Notes under the pieces: model-generated
Told to the model about the DNA's origin: nothing
Seen by the model: only the letters and a program-made list of their open reading frames with translations
Database searches by the model: none
In this document: positions 58,848 to 64,000 of the stretch, in pieces
Layout: each line of letters starts with the position of its first letter
Numbering within the stretch: position 1 is the stretch's first letter
Translations under genes and position numbers: made by a program
Origin: Pyramidobacter piscolens W5455
Lineage (GTDB): Bacteria; Synergistota; Synergistia; Synergistales; Dethiosulfovibrionaceae
Direction: 5' to 3'
Length of the DNA stretch: 64,000 nt
Assembly: GCF_000177335.1 (NCBI RefSeq)
Contig: NZ_ADFP01000135.1
Coordinates: 1 to 64,000 of the forward strand

Positions 58848-59273
58848 TCAGAGAATCTCCACGACGGTGACTTCGAAGTTCAGTTCCTTGCCGGCCAGGG
58901 AATGGTTGGCGTCGAGCGTGACGGCCCCGTCGTCTTTGACCGCGGCGACGGTAACGGGGCGGCGCCCCATCTGGAGCTGATCGCCAACGCGCGGCGTGTA
59001 GCCTTTGGGCATACGGTCCGCTTCGACGGTGACGAGCATGTCGTCGCGGCGTCGGCCGTAGGCTTCTTCGGGAGCGAGCTTGAGGTTTTTCGTTTCGCCG
59101 ACGGCCATGCCTTCGACGCCCTTGTCGAAGCCGGCGATCATCTGTCCGGCGCCGACGGTGAACTCCAGCGGCGGCCGTTTGTTGAGCACGGAAGAGTCGA
59201 AAACGGAACCGTCGTTCAGCGTTCCCGTGTAATGCACGCGGATCTTGTCGCCTTTTTTCACTGTTTGAGACAT
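58848..59273 (-). CDS. FKBP-type peptidyl-prolyl isomerase (SlyD-like)
   Basis: 141 residues. IRVHYTGTLNDGSVFDSSV, LEFTVGAGQMIAGFDKGVEG and an IF (insert-in-flap) domain region from about residue 68 (PEEAYGRRRDDMLVTVEADR). The His-rich metal tail of SlyD is absent. Cytoplasmic folding helper. It starts three bases after the ABC-F stop and is probably its co-transcribed partner. Confidence 0.9.
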   Translation of the reverse strand: MSQTVKKGDKIRVHYTGTLNDGSVFDSSVLNKRPPLEFTVGAGQMIAGFDKGVEGMAVGETKNLKLAPEEAYGRRRDDMLVTVEADRMPKGYTPRVGDQLQMGRRPVTVAAVKDDGAVTLDANHSLAGKELNFEVTVVEIL

Positions 59274-59276
59274 CGT

Positions 59277-61211
59277 TCATTCTCCCTTTTCGATTTTTTC
59301 GATGATTTCCATCAGTTCTTCCCAGCGGCCGGTCGCGGCCTCGAGTTCCGCGCCGGCGTCCGCAAGGTCTTTCATGAGCGTCTGGATTCTGTTTGAATCG
59401 GCGATCACTTCCGGCCGGCAAAGTTCTTTTTCGTCTCGTCCTTTGCGTCTTTCCAAGTCGTCGATCCGCTCTTCAAGCGCGGCGAGTTCGTCCGCGTAAA
59501 CTTTTTTGCGGCGATAGATTTCGTTGCGCCGCCGCGCTTCTTCGCGTTTTTTGTCGCGTTCGCCGCCGCGTTTCGAATCGGTGGCGGCGGCCGGGACGTT
59601 CTGCGCGAGCGACGCTTGGCGCTGTTCGATGAAGCGGCTGTAATTGCCGGCGTAGTCGTGCAGGGCCCCGTCGCGCAGTTCCCAAACGCGCTGCGCGAGC
59701 TGGTTCAGGAAAAAACGGTCGTGCGAGACGATCAGCAGCGTGCCGTCGTAGGCGAGCAGAGCCTGCTGAAAGAGCTCCCGCGTGGTCATGTCGAGGTGGT
59801 TGGTCGGTTCGTCGAGGATCAGGAAGTTCGAGGGGTTCATGAGGATCTTGACGAGGGAAAGGCGCGATTTCTCGCCGCCGGAAAGCACTTTGACGGGTTT
59901 GTGAATGTCGTCGCCGCTGAACAGGAACGAGCCCAGCAAGGTGCGTTTTTCCACCTCGGACATCGCCATGTTGAGCGGATAGATTTCCTGCCAGACGGTG
60001 CGGTCGTAGTTCAGGTTTTCGGCGCTTTCCTGCGAGAAGAATGCGGGCAGCACGTGATAGCCGGTTTCGCAGCTTCCGGAGGTGGGGCGCTCTTTGCCTG
60101 AAATGAGGCGCGAAAGCGTGGATTTTCCGGCTCCGTTCACGCCGACGAGGGCGATCTTCTGTCCCCGTTCGACGGTCGCATTGAGGTGATCAAAGACGCG
60201 GTGCGCTCCGTAGGCCATGCCGAGATCGTTCAGCGTCAGGACGACGTGTCCGCTGGGCGGGCAGGGCGGAAATTTCAGCGTTATGCGACGGGCCGCCGTT
60301 TCCGCTTGGATGATTTGGATCTTTTCAAGCGCCTTGACGCGGCTTTGCACCTGCGCGGCCTTTGTGGCTTTGTAACGGAAACGTTCGATGAATTCTTTCG
60401 TCCTGGCGATCTCTTCCTTTTGGCGGGCGGCGGAGCGTTCAAGCTGGGCTTTCTGCTCTTCCGAGGCGCGCAGATAATCCGAGAAATTGCCCTTATAAAC
60501 GCGGATCCTGCCGGAATGGAGCTCGGCGATGCCTTTCATGACCTTGTCCATAAAGACGCGGTCGTGGGAAATGGCCACGAGCGTACCGCGATAGTCGGAG
60601 AGCCAGTTTTCCAGCCACTCCATGCTCTCTGTGTCGAGATGGTTGGTCGGTTCGTCGAGGAGCAGGATGTCGGGGCGCGACAGCAGCAGCCCGGCCAGCG
60701 TGACGCGCATCTTCCATCCGCCGGAGAACTCTCCGCAGGGTTTGGCGTCGTCGCCGTCATGGAACCCCAGTCCGCGCAAAGCCTTGCGTGACATCGCCTC
60801 AAAAGAATAGCCGCCGAGTTTTTCATAGGCGGCGGCCGCTTCATCGTGCAGCTTCATCAGGCGGGCGTGTTCGTTTTCGGGCGCGGCGGCGAGTTCTTCG
60901 GAACATCGCTTGAGCCTCTTCTCTGCCGCCGTAATGCCGGTACGATCTTTGAGGTACTGCATCAGCGTGACGTCGGGCAGCTCCGCCAGATCCTGGGGCA
61001 AATAACCGACCGTCGCGGAAAGAGGGGAGACGTTGATCTCGCCGCTGTCGGCGCTCACTTGCCCGACTATGGCGCGCAGCAGCGTGGTTTTGCCGACGCC
61101 ATTTGGGCCGACGAGTCCCGTGCGGCTTCCGGCGTCGATCTGCCAGTTCAGGCCATCGAAAATTTTCCGGCCGCCGGCAAAGGTCAGATTGAGGTCTCTG
61201 ATCCGTATCAT
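59277..61211 (-). CDS. ABC-F family ATPase
   Basis: 644 residues, two ABC domains, no membrane segment. First: GLVGPNGVGKTTLLRAIVGQ, ABC signature FSGGWKMRVTLAGLLLSRPD, DEPTNHLD. A linker helix pair (about residues 240-295) then second: LVGVNGAGKSTLSRLISGKE, LSGGEKSRLSLVKILMNPS, DEPTNHLDM. The C-terminal coiled coil (DKKREEARRRNEIYRRKKVY) is basic. Ribosome-associated translation factor or antibiotic-protection type (Uup/EttA-like), exact role open. Overlaps the coiled-coil gene by four bases. Confidence 0.93.
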   Translation of the reverse strand: MIRIRDLNLTFAGGRKIFDGLNWQIDAGSRTGLVGPNGVGKTTLLRAIVGQVSADSGEINVSPLSATVGYLPQDLAELPDVTLMQYLKDRTGITAAEKRLKRCSEELAAAPENEHARLMKLHDEAAAAYEKLGGYSFEAMSRKALRGLGFHDGDDAKPCGEFSGGWKMRVTLAGLLLSRPDILLLDEPTNHLDTESMEWLENWLSDYRGTLVAISHDRVFMDKVMKGIAELHSGRIRVYKGNFSDYLRASEEQKAQLERSAARQKEEIARTKEFIERFRYKATKAAQVQSRVKALEKIQIIQAETAARRITLKFPPCPPSGHVVLTLNDLGMAYGAHRVFDHLNATVERGQKIALVGVNGAGKSTLSRLISGKERPTSGSCETGYHVLPAFFSQESAENLNYDRTVWQEIYPLNMAMSEVEKRTLLGSFLFSGDDIHKPVKVLSGGEKSRLSLVKILMNPSNFLILDEPTNHLDMTTRELFQQALLAYDGTLLIVSHDRFFLNQLAQRVWELRDGALHDYAGNYSRFIEQRQASLAQNVPAAATDSKRGGERDKKREEARRRNEIYRRKKVYADELAALEERIDDLERRKGRDEKELCRPEVIADSNRIQTLMKDLADAGAELEAATGRWEELMEIIEKIEKGE

Positions 61212-62203
61212 GGCGACGGATGTTCGCCTTTTTCCGCGGATTTCAGGATCAACTGACGGCGGAGCTCGTCGGCGCGGAGCTCAAGCTGCTTTTCCATATC
61301 TTGTTTCAACGCTTCGATCGCGCGCCGGTGATCGTCGTTGAGCTGTTCGATCTGATAGTGGGCGCGGTTGAGTTCGTGCGCTTTGTCCTCGAGGACGCTT
61401 TTCAGGGCTTCCATCTGCGACTGATACTGCCGTCCCGTTTGCAGCTGGATCAGCGACAGTTTGCGCTCGTACTCGCGCTGCTGGTCGGCGGCGCGGCGTT
61501 CCTGTTCGGAAGCGGCCGCCTCGTGACGGGCCAGATCGTTCTGCAGCTTTTCCAGCTGCCGTTTTTGTTCGCGTTTGATGCGTGCCAGCTCTTCCAGCGC
61601 CGCGTTTTTTTCGCGCTCGGCGATGCTGCCCAGGGACTGGGTTCGGGCGATGGCCTCGGCGGCGCTGCGGGCGCGGTCTTCCGCGATTTGGATGCTTTCG
61701 TGCAGGTTCACTTTTTCCTGCTCGTACTTCAGCGTCAGCGCATCGAGTGCCGTCTTGTGCTTGCGGGCGGCTCTGGCCGCTTCGGTATTCAGTTCTTCGA
61801 TATGGGTCCGAAGGTGAGCGGCTTCTTCTTTCGCGGCGCGCAGCTGGCTTTTGGCTTCTTCAACGCGGTGGGCGTCGCCTCGGTAAACGGCGAGCTGTTC
61901 CTTGAGCTGCGTTATTTCGAGCTTCAGCGAGGCTTCGCCGCGGCGCGCTTCGGAAAGCTCCATGTGAGCGTCCATGAAATTTTTTCGGAGCACTTCCAGT
62001 TCGTTCTCCCTTTCGTCAAGCCGCTTGCGGAGCAAAAGCGTTTCGCGCCCGTTCTGCTCCTTTTCGTTGATCAGGAGGTCTTTCTGGCGTACGGCGACCT
62101 GAAATATCTGCTTGCCGAACGCCTCAAGCTGAGCGAGGGCCCGGCGAAACGCTTCTTCGTCAGGGATGGGATCAACGACGCTTTTGTCAATTTGTTCCTG
62201 CAT
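61208..62203 (-). CDS. Long coiled-coil protein (331 aa)
   Basis: No family recognised. Nearly the entire chain after about residue 45 is heptad-rich and charged (LRKRLDERENELEVLRKNFM, RKHKTALDALTLKYEQEKVN, QYQSQMEALKSVLEDKAHEL). No signal peptide or membrane helix; cytoplasmic rod. It overlaps the ABC-F gene (ATGA) and follows the flavoprotein by 47 bp, so the set is probably one transcript. SMC-like hinge or ATPase heads are absent. Confidence 0.8.
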   Translation of the reverse strand: MQEQIDKSVVDPIPDEEAFRRALAQLEAFGKQIFQVAVRQKDLLINEKEQNGRETLLLRKRLDERENELEVLRKNFMDAHMELSEARRGEASLKLEITQLKEQLAVYRGDAHRVEEAKSQLRAAKEEAAHLRTHIEELNTEAARAARKHKTALDALTLKYEQEKVNLHESIQIAEDRARSAAEAIARTQSLGSIAEREKNAALEELARIKREQKRQLEKLQNDLARHEAAASEQERRAADQQREYERKLSLIQLQTGRQYQSQMEALKSVLEDKAHELNRAHYQIEQLNDDHRRAIEALKQDMEKQLELRADELRRQLILKSAEKGEHPSP

Positions 62204-62250
62204 ACTACCGGCCTTCCTGTTGAGAGATGGATTGTGTTGCGTCTTTTGCT

Positions 62251-64000
62251 CTATCGCTTATCGTCTTTTCTGAAACGGGAGAAACTGGCGAATTTCCGCG
62301 GACGCGGTTTGGAAACGGGCGGTTCGCTGCGGGGCGGCCTGTTTTCATGAGAGAACTCCCTTTCCCGGGAACGGTCTGCGTCGAACCGCCGTTTGCCGGG
62401 GAAAGGCCGTTCCTGAAGAGGGCGTCCGGCATGAAAGTCTCGGTCGTCATGGCTGCGGCGAGTGTCGTAGGGGCGCTCCGAACGGCCGGCGTACGAATTT
62501 CGTTCATTGTCGAAGCCGCGCTCGTAGAACCCACGGAGTTCCCTGTCGTCAGATGCATAGGGACGTCTGGGCGCGTCGGAGAAACGGGGGCGCCGCTCCT
62601 GATCGTGCGGACGCCAGTCCCGTGGAGGCGAATCGGAGCGCCTCTGATATTCGGAACCTTCGCTGCGGAAATTTTCCCTGGACGGACGCGGATCGCGCGG
62701 CCGTTCGAAGTCGCGGCGTTCGTCGCGCGCCCTGGAACCGGGGCGGTCGAAGGGGCGCCGTTCCGAACGGCGGAACCTTCCTTCGGACGCCGCCTCGCGG
62801 AAGCGGGACGGTTCCGAAAAATCCTCGCGGCCGCCCCTGCCGTAGGGCTGTTGGCGGTATTCCCGGGACGGGGCGTCGGTGCGGCGGGATGCGCGCCGAT
62901 CGTCGCGATCGTCTCCGAACGGCCGCCGTCCTCTTTCGAACGGCCGGTCTTCGTCCCGGCGGAAAAAGCGGCGGTCTTCCGGGAAACGCGGCCGTTCGTC
63001 GGAATCCCGGCGCTCCCCAAAATCGCTCTCTTCCCGGGACGTCTTTTGGGGGCGGTCCGAACGGTCTGTGCGTTGGAAAGGACGCCTCTCGCGATGGCGG
63101 TCTTCGGGAGACGGGCGGCGGTCTTTTCCGAAACCGGGGCGGTCGCCGCCGCCAGTTCCTTCTTCTGGCTGCCGGGGCGTCTGCCTGCGCGGATCTCTCC
63201 AGCCGCAGAATTCTTTGTCGTCGGTGGGGCCGGTTTTGATAGTCATATCCTCGTTTTTTTCCTCCTTGAATTTCTGACGCTCCGCTTTGGAGATCTCATA
63301 TCTGTGGCTGCGCGCCGCTTCCATCTGCCTGACGATGTCCTCGTCCGTGGGCTTTTTGAACCCCAGAGCTTCGGCGGCCGCGCTCCCGGCGGTGAAGCCT
63401 GTGCTCCAGCATTCTTGAAGATTGTAGCCGCCGGTCGGTCCGTCGACGTCGATCATTTCGCCGGCGAAGTAGAGGTTGGGGACGATTTTCGAGGCCATGG
63501 TCTCCGGCTCGATCCCGTCGGTGCTCACGCCGCCGCTGGTGACGATGGCGTGCCGGAACCCCAGAAGTTCCGTGGGCGTGACGACGAAATCCTTGATCAT
63601 GTTCCGGAGCGCGAGGCGCTCTTCGGCCGTGGTCTCGCCGCAGGGTTTCCCCATGTCGAGCTTGGCCATCTTGAGCGCTTCGGGGATGATCTGGGCGGGT
63701 AGCATTTTTCTCAGCGCAAAGCGCAGCGCGTCGCCGCCGAATTCCCGGAAGTCGCGCTCGATGCGGGCGTCGAGGCGTTCCGGCTCGAGCGCCGGCTTGA
63801 GGTCGATATGAACAGTCGTGCGCCCGGTCTTGCGCAGACAGTTTCCCACGCTGGCGGCCAGGTCCATGACGATGGCGCCGGAAATGCCGAACGGCGTGAA
63901 ATCCATTTCGCCGAAGCGCTCGTCCACGGTTTCGCCGTTTTGGCGGACCGTGACGCGCACGTTTTTGAGCTTCAGACCGGACAGCTGATCGTCGAAGCGC
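62251..64000 (-). CDS. HI0933-like flavoprotein with long Arg/Asp-rich tail, N-terminus outside window
   Basis: The frame runs off the right edge. Visible core: LSGLKLKNVRVTV, FTPFGISGAIVMDLAAS, FRHAIVTSGGVSTDGIEPET, LYFAGEMIDVDGPTGGYNLQ, ECWSTGFTAGSAAAEALGFK, the C-terminal half of the YhiN/HI0933 oxidoreductase family (FAD-binding). Instead of ending near there, it continues about 330 residues rich in Arg, Asp, Glu, Pro, Gly and Ser (RPFERGRRPFGDDRDDRR and the like), intrinsically disordered and RGG-like. An internal ATG at 63246 (MTIKTGP) follows AAGGAGG and GAGG, so the tail may also be made alone. Confidence 0.88.
   Translation of the reverse strand, partial: RFDDQLSGLKLKNVRVTVRQNGETVDERFGEMDFTPFGISGAIVMDLAASVGNCLRKTGRTTVHIDLKPALEPERLDARIERDFREFGGDALRFALRKMLPAQIIPEALKMAKLDMGKPCGETTAEERLALRNMIKDFVVTPTELLGFRHAIVTSGGVSTDGIEPETMASKIVPNLYFAGEMIDVDGPTGGYNLQECWSTGFTAGSAAAEALGFKKPTDEDIVRQMEAARSHRYEISKAERQKFKEEKNEDMTIKTGPTDDKEFCGWRDPRRQTPRQPEEGTGGGDRPGFGKDRRPSPEDRHRERRPFQRTDRSDRPQKTSREESDFGERRDSDERPRFPEDRRFFRRDEDRPFERGRRPFGDDRDDRRASRRTDAPSREYRQQPYGRGGREDFSEPSRFREAASEGRFRRSERRPFDRPGSRARDERRDFERPRDPRPSRENFRSEGSEYQRRSDSPPRDWRPHDQERRPRFSDAPRRPYASDDRELRGFYERGFDNERNSYAGRSERPYDTRRSHDDRDFHAGRPLQERPFPGKRRFDADRSREREFSHENRPPRSEPPVSKPRPRKFASFSRFRKDDKR

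Follow-up and report, generated by a model that had tools for sequence, protein, structure and literature searches.

The window, a 64,000-nucleotide stretch of contig NZ_ADFP01000135.1 of Pyramidobacter piscolens W5455, ends within a flavoprotein gene whose frame runs on past the enzymatic core into Arg-rich sequence, and the locus raises the question of what such an enzyme would act on and what, if anything, its tail contributes. An earlier note had described a 330-residue in-frame tail behind a HI0933-like core, and the frame is indeed open throughout, with six Pyramidobacter genomes in agreement. In the ORF list, the minus-strand frame 62251–63999 has no internal stop and provides 582 codons inside the window; the segment 62251–64000 (minus strand) is the 3′ part of a flavoprotein gene of 786 codons (contig 62251–64611, minus strand), whose ATG at contig position 64611 lies beyond the window edge. 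Of the FAD-binding core (HI0933/TIGR00275), the window holds the C-terminal two thirds (63385–64000, minus strand; residues 205–409 of 786); core residues 1–204 (contig 64001–64611, minus strand) lie outside it and were obtained from the full gene read from contig locus L002. The core is followed, on the same strand, by a charged linker delimited by six-genome alignment (63253–63384; residues 410–453), an entry motif of 24 residues delimited by its near-invariance (63181–63252; residues 454–477), an Arg/acidic mixed-charge tail of 309 residues defined by composition, FoldIndex, Ka/Ks and simulation (62254–63180; residues 478–786), and the stop codon (62251–62253). The earlier note had placed the start of the tail at M456 (63246), from which 331 residues do extend to the C-terminus; however, the non-core part begins at about residue 410 (63384), and a linker of about 44 residues precedes the entry motif and M456. 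Antisense to the tail runs an open frame of 491 codons (62227–63702, plus strand), which is open across the tail in three related genomes as well. It was rejected as a gene, since its openness arises from a sense tail that is nearly devoid of Leu and of TCA, TTA and CTA codons.

The core is complete and ends normally, as had been claimed, with a score of 395.6 bits against TIGR00275 (curated cut-off, 183.8 bits) that spans profile positions 1–400 of 401 in the NCBIfam profile search, the match covering residues 5–408 of a query starting at residue 2. On the in-window portion of the core, PF22780 and PF03486 of Pfam also exceed their cut-offs. The N-terminal sequence IGGGPAGMMAA satisfies the FAD Rossmann motif GxGPAG, the C-terminal end FAGEMIDVDGPTGGYNLQ satisfies the family motif GE..D..GPTGGYN, and the FoldIndex of the core is +0.17. 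The window genome has no other strong HI0933 match. Among solved structures, Bacillus 2i0z and Streptococcus 4cnj are nearest in sequence, covering residues 3–413. The profile also recognizes E. coli YhiN, at 427.7 bits and far above the cut-off of 183.8, and the core aligns with YhiN at 27% identity over 404 columns (2e-31). We take YhiN to be RdsA, the dihydrouridine synthase responsible for D2449 of 23S rRNA; Toubdji et al. (PNAS 2024) reportedly describe RdsA, encoded by yhiN, as an FAD/NADH-dependent dihydrouridine 2449 synthase of 23S rRNA. Another source, which cites Toubdji et al., gives RdsA as the D2449 enzyme and does not mention the yhiN gene (PMC12501074). By homology, the Pyramidobacter core is thus most likely an rRNA-modifying-type flavoenzyme of the RdsA/YhiN kind, although 27% identity to YhiN is no proof of a common substrate.

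The putative target is available. Position 2449 of 23S rRNA lies near the peptidyl-transferase centre (PMC11194073), and in ribosomes of S. aureus, density consistent with dihydrouridine has been described at the equivalent place (PMC11190147). In the window genome U2449 stands in its usual context, GGGGATAACAGGCTGAT, and U2449 is present in G000, G001 and G005. Where the site is readable, nearly all Synergistota keep U2449, whether the HI0933 enzyme is present or absent, so that it is not diagnostic and is only permissive for a D2449 assignment. No HI0933 match over the cut-off was obtained in about half of the Synergistota genomes searched, and their readable sites keep U2449. Whole Synergistota families (f4, f6 and f9) have thus repeatedly lost or gained the enzyme, and the enzyme-free families would serve as natural controls for D2449 mapping. 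Only one Synergistota genome, G126, carries A for U at 2449 (GGGGAAAACAGGCTGAT; contig C40:2694–2710); it too is without a strong HI0933 match, a single case that is possibly an assembly error.

The surroundings of the gene point in the direction of translation. Downstream of the flavoprotein gene, the ORF list and the gene order (L069, L070 and L071) place a coiled-coil protein of 331 aa (61208–62203, minus strand), followed in the operon by an ABC-F ATPase (59277–61211, minus strand) that scores 432.8 bits against NF000355 (cut-off, 380), a ribosomal protection-like ABC-F family; ABC-F proteins are ribosome-associated ATPases. The order flavoprotein, coiled-coil protein, ABC-F ATPase recurs in three genera, where the coiled-coil gene, encoding 331–347 aa, adjoins the flavoprotein gene; in two of them, Pyramidobacter and a Dethiosulfovibrio-like genus, an FKBP-like gene follows the ABC-F gene. 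The Pyramidobacter copy encodes 141 aa (58848–59273, minus strand; ORF list and gene order) and is, by eye, a putative FKBP-type peptidyl-prolyl isomerase. The coiled-coil protein itself has only weak SMC/SpiroCoCo matches and belongs to no clear family; from the constancy of its position, a common function of these genes in translation or in the assembly of ribosomes may be suspected.

The same family membership allows a different substrate, in that the TIGR00275 core could act on a small molecule, as an aminoacetone or amino-acid oxidase or a BaiN-like reductase, with the tail as a solubility, localisation or condensate domain unrelated to that substrate. TIGR00275 is described in NCBIfam as the aminoacetone oxidase family and also includes BaiN; 4cnj, an L-amino acid oxidase (6.8e-50), and 2i0z are among the best PDB matches; and the E. 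coli RefSeq record labels YhiN a putative oxidoreductase only. As the family contains enzymes named for small-molecule oxidation, a non-RNA substrate is a real alternative, to which we would give roughly a one-in-four chance. However, 2i0z, the nearest PDB chain, has no assigned substrate, the ABC-F ATPase lies close by in three genera and points to translation, and Arg-rich low-complexity tails are, as general knowledge, typical of RNA-associated proteins.

The tail is Arg/Asp-rich and disordered, as the earlier note had described it. Counted from M456, its 331 residues comprise 25.7% Arg, 11.8% Asp, 10.0% Glu, 11.2% Pro, 8.5% Ser and 7.6% Phe; Asp and Glu together make up 21.8%, Phe and Tyr 10%, and Ile, Leu, Val and Met 1.5%, with a net charge of +22, and the FoldIndex after the entry motif is −0.52. 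The RGG-like character that had been attributed to it did not hold up: the 309 tail residues contain one RGG and four RG, with 43 Arg–acid neighbours, so that the region is of the Arg/acidic mixed-charge type instead. Compared with shuffled sequences, it has its charges mixed more evenly (z −2.3 to −3.0, five genomes), and like the Arg-enriched mixed-charge domains it is of low complexity, consists mainly of Arg with Asp/Glu and has its charges interspersed. Judged by composition, the tail is a well-mixed Arg/acidic low-complexity region. It ends in a more conserved cap, SKPRPRKFASFSRFRKD. There is no Pfam match for the tail, and a comparable composition was not found elsewhere in the window. 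Tail-like extensions were also not found on the DEAD-box protein or the four pseudouridine synthases of the window genome, which indicates that the tail is specific to the flavoenzyme and is not a genome-wide habit.

Comparison across Synergistota, which the earlier note had called for, shows a tail that is genus-wide in Pyramidobacter, about 96 residues long in the sister genus and absent in the other homologues examined. All six separately assembled Pyramidobacter genomes carry it in frame, free of stops and frameshifts, on DNA that diverges widely between genomes. In the sister genus (one genome, G007, probably Jonquetella), the tail is a Lys/Arg-rich stretch of 96 residues with FAGWKGFR, and in the Dethiosulfovibrio-like genus (G006, G008–G013), the protein stops a few residues past the core. 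Full-length HI0933 proteins were sought in 188 Synergistota genomes: the six longest of the other frames checked (G064, G065, G117, G070, G124 and G111) owe their length to N-terminal stop-to-stop read-through and, when translated, have no C-terminal tails, and most of the remaining frames have 400–470 codons. A tail-only search of the genus for paralogous tails, with E up to 10, returned the orthologues and one weak match in G005 (E 0.004), which was discarded, its frame having two stops and the ORFs of its locus (L063) nothing tail-like.

Near-perfect tandem arrays make up the tails of two species, namely 69-bp units of 23 aa in G002 (69 bp × 4.5; L006:2475–2786) and 48-bp units of 16 aa, RPRFRDGERRERDFDD, in G003 (48 bp × 5.6; L056:4395–4663). 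Both arrays reach contig ends, and tail length is probably strain-variable; as the contigs end inside the tail, the lengths there are minimal values. A DNA repeat is not detectable in the window copy of the tail, which has accordingly diverged if it is of repeat origin as in G002 and G003. The simplest history suggested by these sequences would be a short basic FxGW tail in the ancestor of both genera, which short tandem repeats lengthened in Pyramidobacter.

Between core and tail, the linker TDEDIVRQMEAARSHRYEISKAERQKFKEEKN, 45–66 residues long across the genus in the six-genome alignment, is probably helical according to a low-confidence model. It leads into an entry motif that is nearly invariant in the genus (EDMTIKTGPTDDKEFCGWRDPRRR / EDMTIKTGPTDDKEFCGWRDPRRQ; consensus EDMTI[KQ]TGPTDD[KR]EFCGWRDPR). 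A 35-base degenerate pattern of this motif, with three mismatches allowed, matches once per genome in all six Pyramidobacter genomes and, at the same tolerance, has no further matches in the family; a looser FxGW[RK] pattern adds solely the sister-genus tail. The core of the motif, FxGW[RK]xxR, is thus common to Pyramidobacter and the shorter sister-genus tail (FAGWKGFR), but as the looser pattern was designed after both sequences were seen, the sharing of FxGW is suggestive and is not independent evidence. In appearance, the invariant element EFCGWRDPR resembles a docking motif, and the entry-motif peptide EDMTIKTGPTDDKEFCGWRDPRR would be the candidate docking element.

Whether the tail does anything at all is addressed by the selection acting on it; the alternative is a largely non-functional tail, for which the original stop was lost, tandem repeats slipped and the read-through extension was merely tolerated. 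The near-perfect repeats in two species (69 bp × 4.5 and 48 bp × 5.6) mean that repeat expansion clearly contributed to the tail, and most tail residues vary freely, with Ka/Ks of 0.3–0.5 against 0.08 for the core in the closest genomes. Overall, Ka/Ks is about 0.3–0.5 for the tail and about 0.08–0.2 for the core; when the window genome is compared with the three genomes closest to it, Ka/Ks is 0.34–0.45 for the tail, 0.07–0.08 for the core, 0.13–0.25 for the last 20 residues and 0.02–0.04 for the entry motif. The tail values are nevertheless well below 1, in six genomes without a stop or frameshift, and the entry motif evolves at the pace of the core or slower. Moreover, composition is far from the neutral expectation: real tails contain 3–6 aliphatics, where 17.6 are expected after random nonsynonymous change (simulated minimum, 9), and 75–80 Arg, where 66 are expected (1000 runs, 83–89 amino-acid differences). 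The sister genus, too, has a basic tail with FxGW[RK]xxR. The tail is coding and loosely constrained, and composition is what is kept; it is under purifying selection on motif and composition, and a largely non-functional extension is improbable.

Still less probable, and very doubtful, is that internal initiation at M456 (63246) also yields the tail as a separate protein of 331 aa acting in trans. All six Pyramidobacter genomes retain this ATG, and four of them have AAGGAGG upstream; however, with a spacing of about 14 nt this element is too distant for efficient initiation, and the other two genomes have no AAGGAGG, only GAGGAG-like glutamate codons. Synonymous sites of the motif vary as they do elsewhere (pS 0.35–0.57 between the window genome and its closest relatives), and the tail is a separate gene in no relative examined. 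An assembly or sequencing artefact fusing two genes, for which no evidence in favour was found, is refuted by an identical in-frame junction in six separate and consistent assemblies with divergent DNA, including the two-contig G005, and by the failure to find a separate tail gene between the flavoprotein and coiled-coil genes in two related tail-poor genera, so that the refuting outcome named in the earlier note does not arise.

The reading we prefer, to which we would assign about an even chance, is that of a TIGR00275 enzyme of the RdsA/YhiN type, an rRNA dihydrouridine synthase predicted to act on U2449 and equipped with an acquired tethering tail. We infer that the FAD core would reduce a uridine near the peptidyl-transferase centre (U2449 of 23S rRNA), that the Arg-rich, aromatic-studded tail would touch rRNA, and perhaps also copies of itself, through many weak contacts, and that these multivalent contacts would prolong residence on nascent 23S rRNA or the pre-50S particle before burial of the site. 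Acidic residues scattered among the arginines would hold the net charge low (+22) and the contacts weak and reversible, and the F-C-G-W-R entry motif may serve for docking, as a short site that engages either a partner or the core. In vitro, alternating R–D peptides do not phase-separate alone, and blocky ones do (PMC9324279), so that the even mixing of the tail favours tethering over autonomous condensation. Against a U2449 synthase with a tether stand the tail-less E. coli enzyme and the DEAD-box protein and pseudouridine synthases, which lack tails. The earlier proposal of an RNA-linked redox enzyme is thus probably correct, on account of the catalytic core, which shares TIGR00275 with YhiN and on which the earlier note had not drawn, as well as of the tail, which is plausibly an rRNA tether. 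By extension, the HI0933 flavoproteins of the clade, whose assignments are poor, may be RNA enzymes and not the amino-acid or aminoacetone oxidases that the family name implies.

Known systems resemble the Pyramidobacter protein in its core or in its tail. With E. coli YhiN/RdsA it shares homology over the full core, membership in TIGR00275 and a target uridine present in rRNA; however, YhiN, at 400 aa, ends at the core and has no linker, entry motif or tail, and Bacillus 2i0z and Streptococcus 4cnj, with the same HI0933-type core, are both tail-less. RGG-box tails are likewise Arg-rich and disordered, but their RGG/RG clustering is missing here. The Arg-enriched mixed-charge domains come closer, as they also consist mainly of Arg with Asp/Glu, well mixed and net positive (PMC9324279), although they are eukaryotic, whereas the Pyramidobacter tail has more Pro, Phe and Gly and sits on a bacterial redox enzyme. 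The disordered region appears to have been gained recently on a conserved core, being full in one genus, short in the sister genus and absent in the Dethiosulfovibrio-like genus, so that tailed and tail-less homologues are directly comparable. For the proposed mechanism, the closest parallel is found in yeast, where snoRNPs are gathered around nascent rRNA by their KKE/D tails and efficient modification depends on these tails (PMC11528048). These are also charged, repeat-like stretches of mixed basic and acidic disorder on an rRNA-modification machine, but they are Lys-based, eukaryotic, borne by snoRNP scaffold proteins and without homology to the Pyramidobacter tail. That the tail is an independently evolved counterpart, concentrating a bacterial rRNA-reducing flavoenzyme on nascent 23S rRNA or in a ribosome-assembly condensate, is a possibility we advance tentatively; if true, bacteria without a nucleolus would independently have equipped an rRNA-modifying enzyme with a charged disordered tail of the kind by which eukaryotes retain their modification machinery at nascent rRNA.
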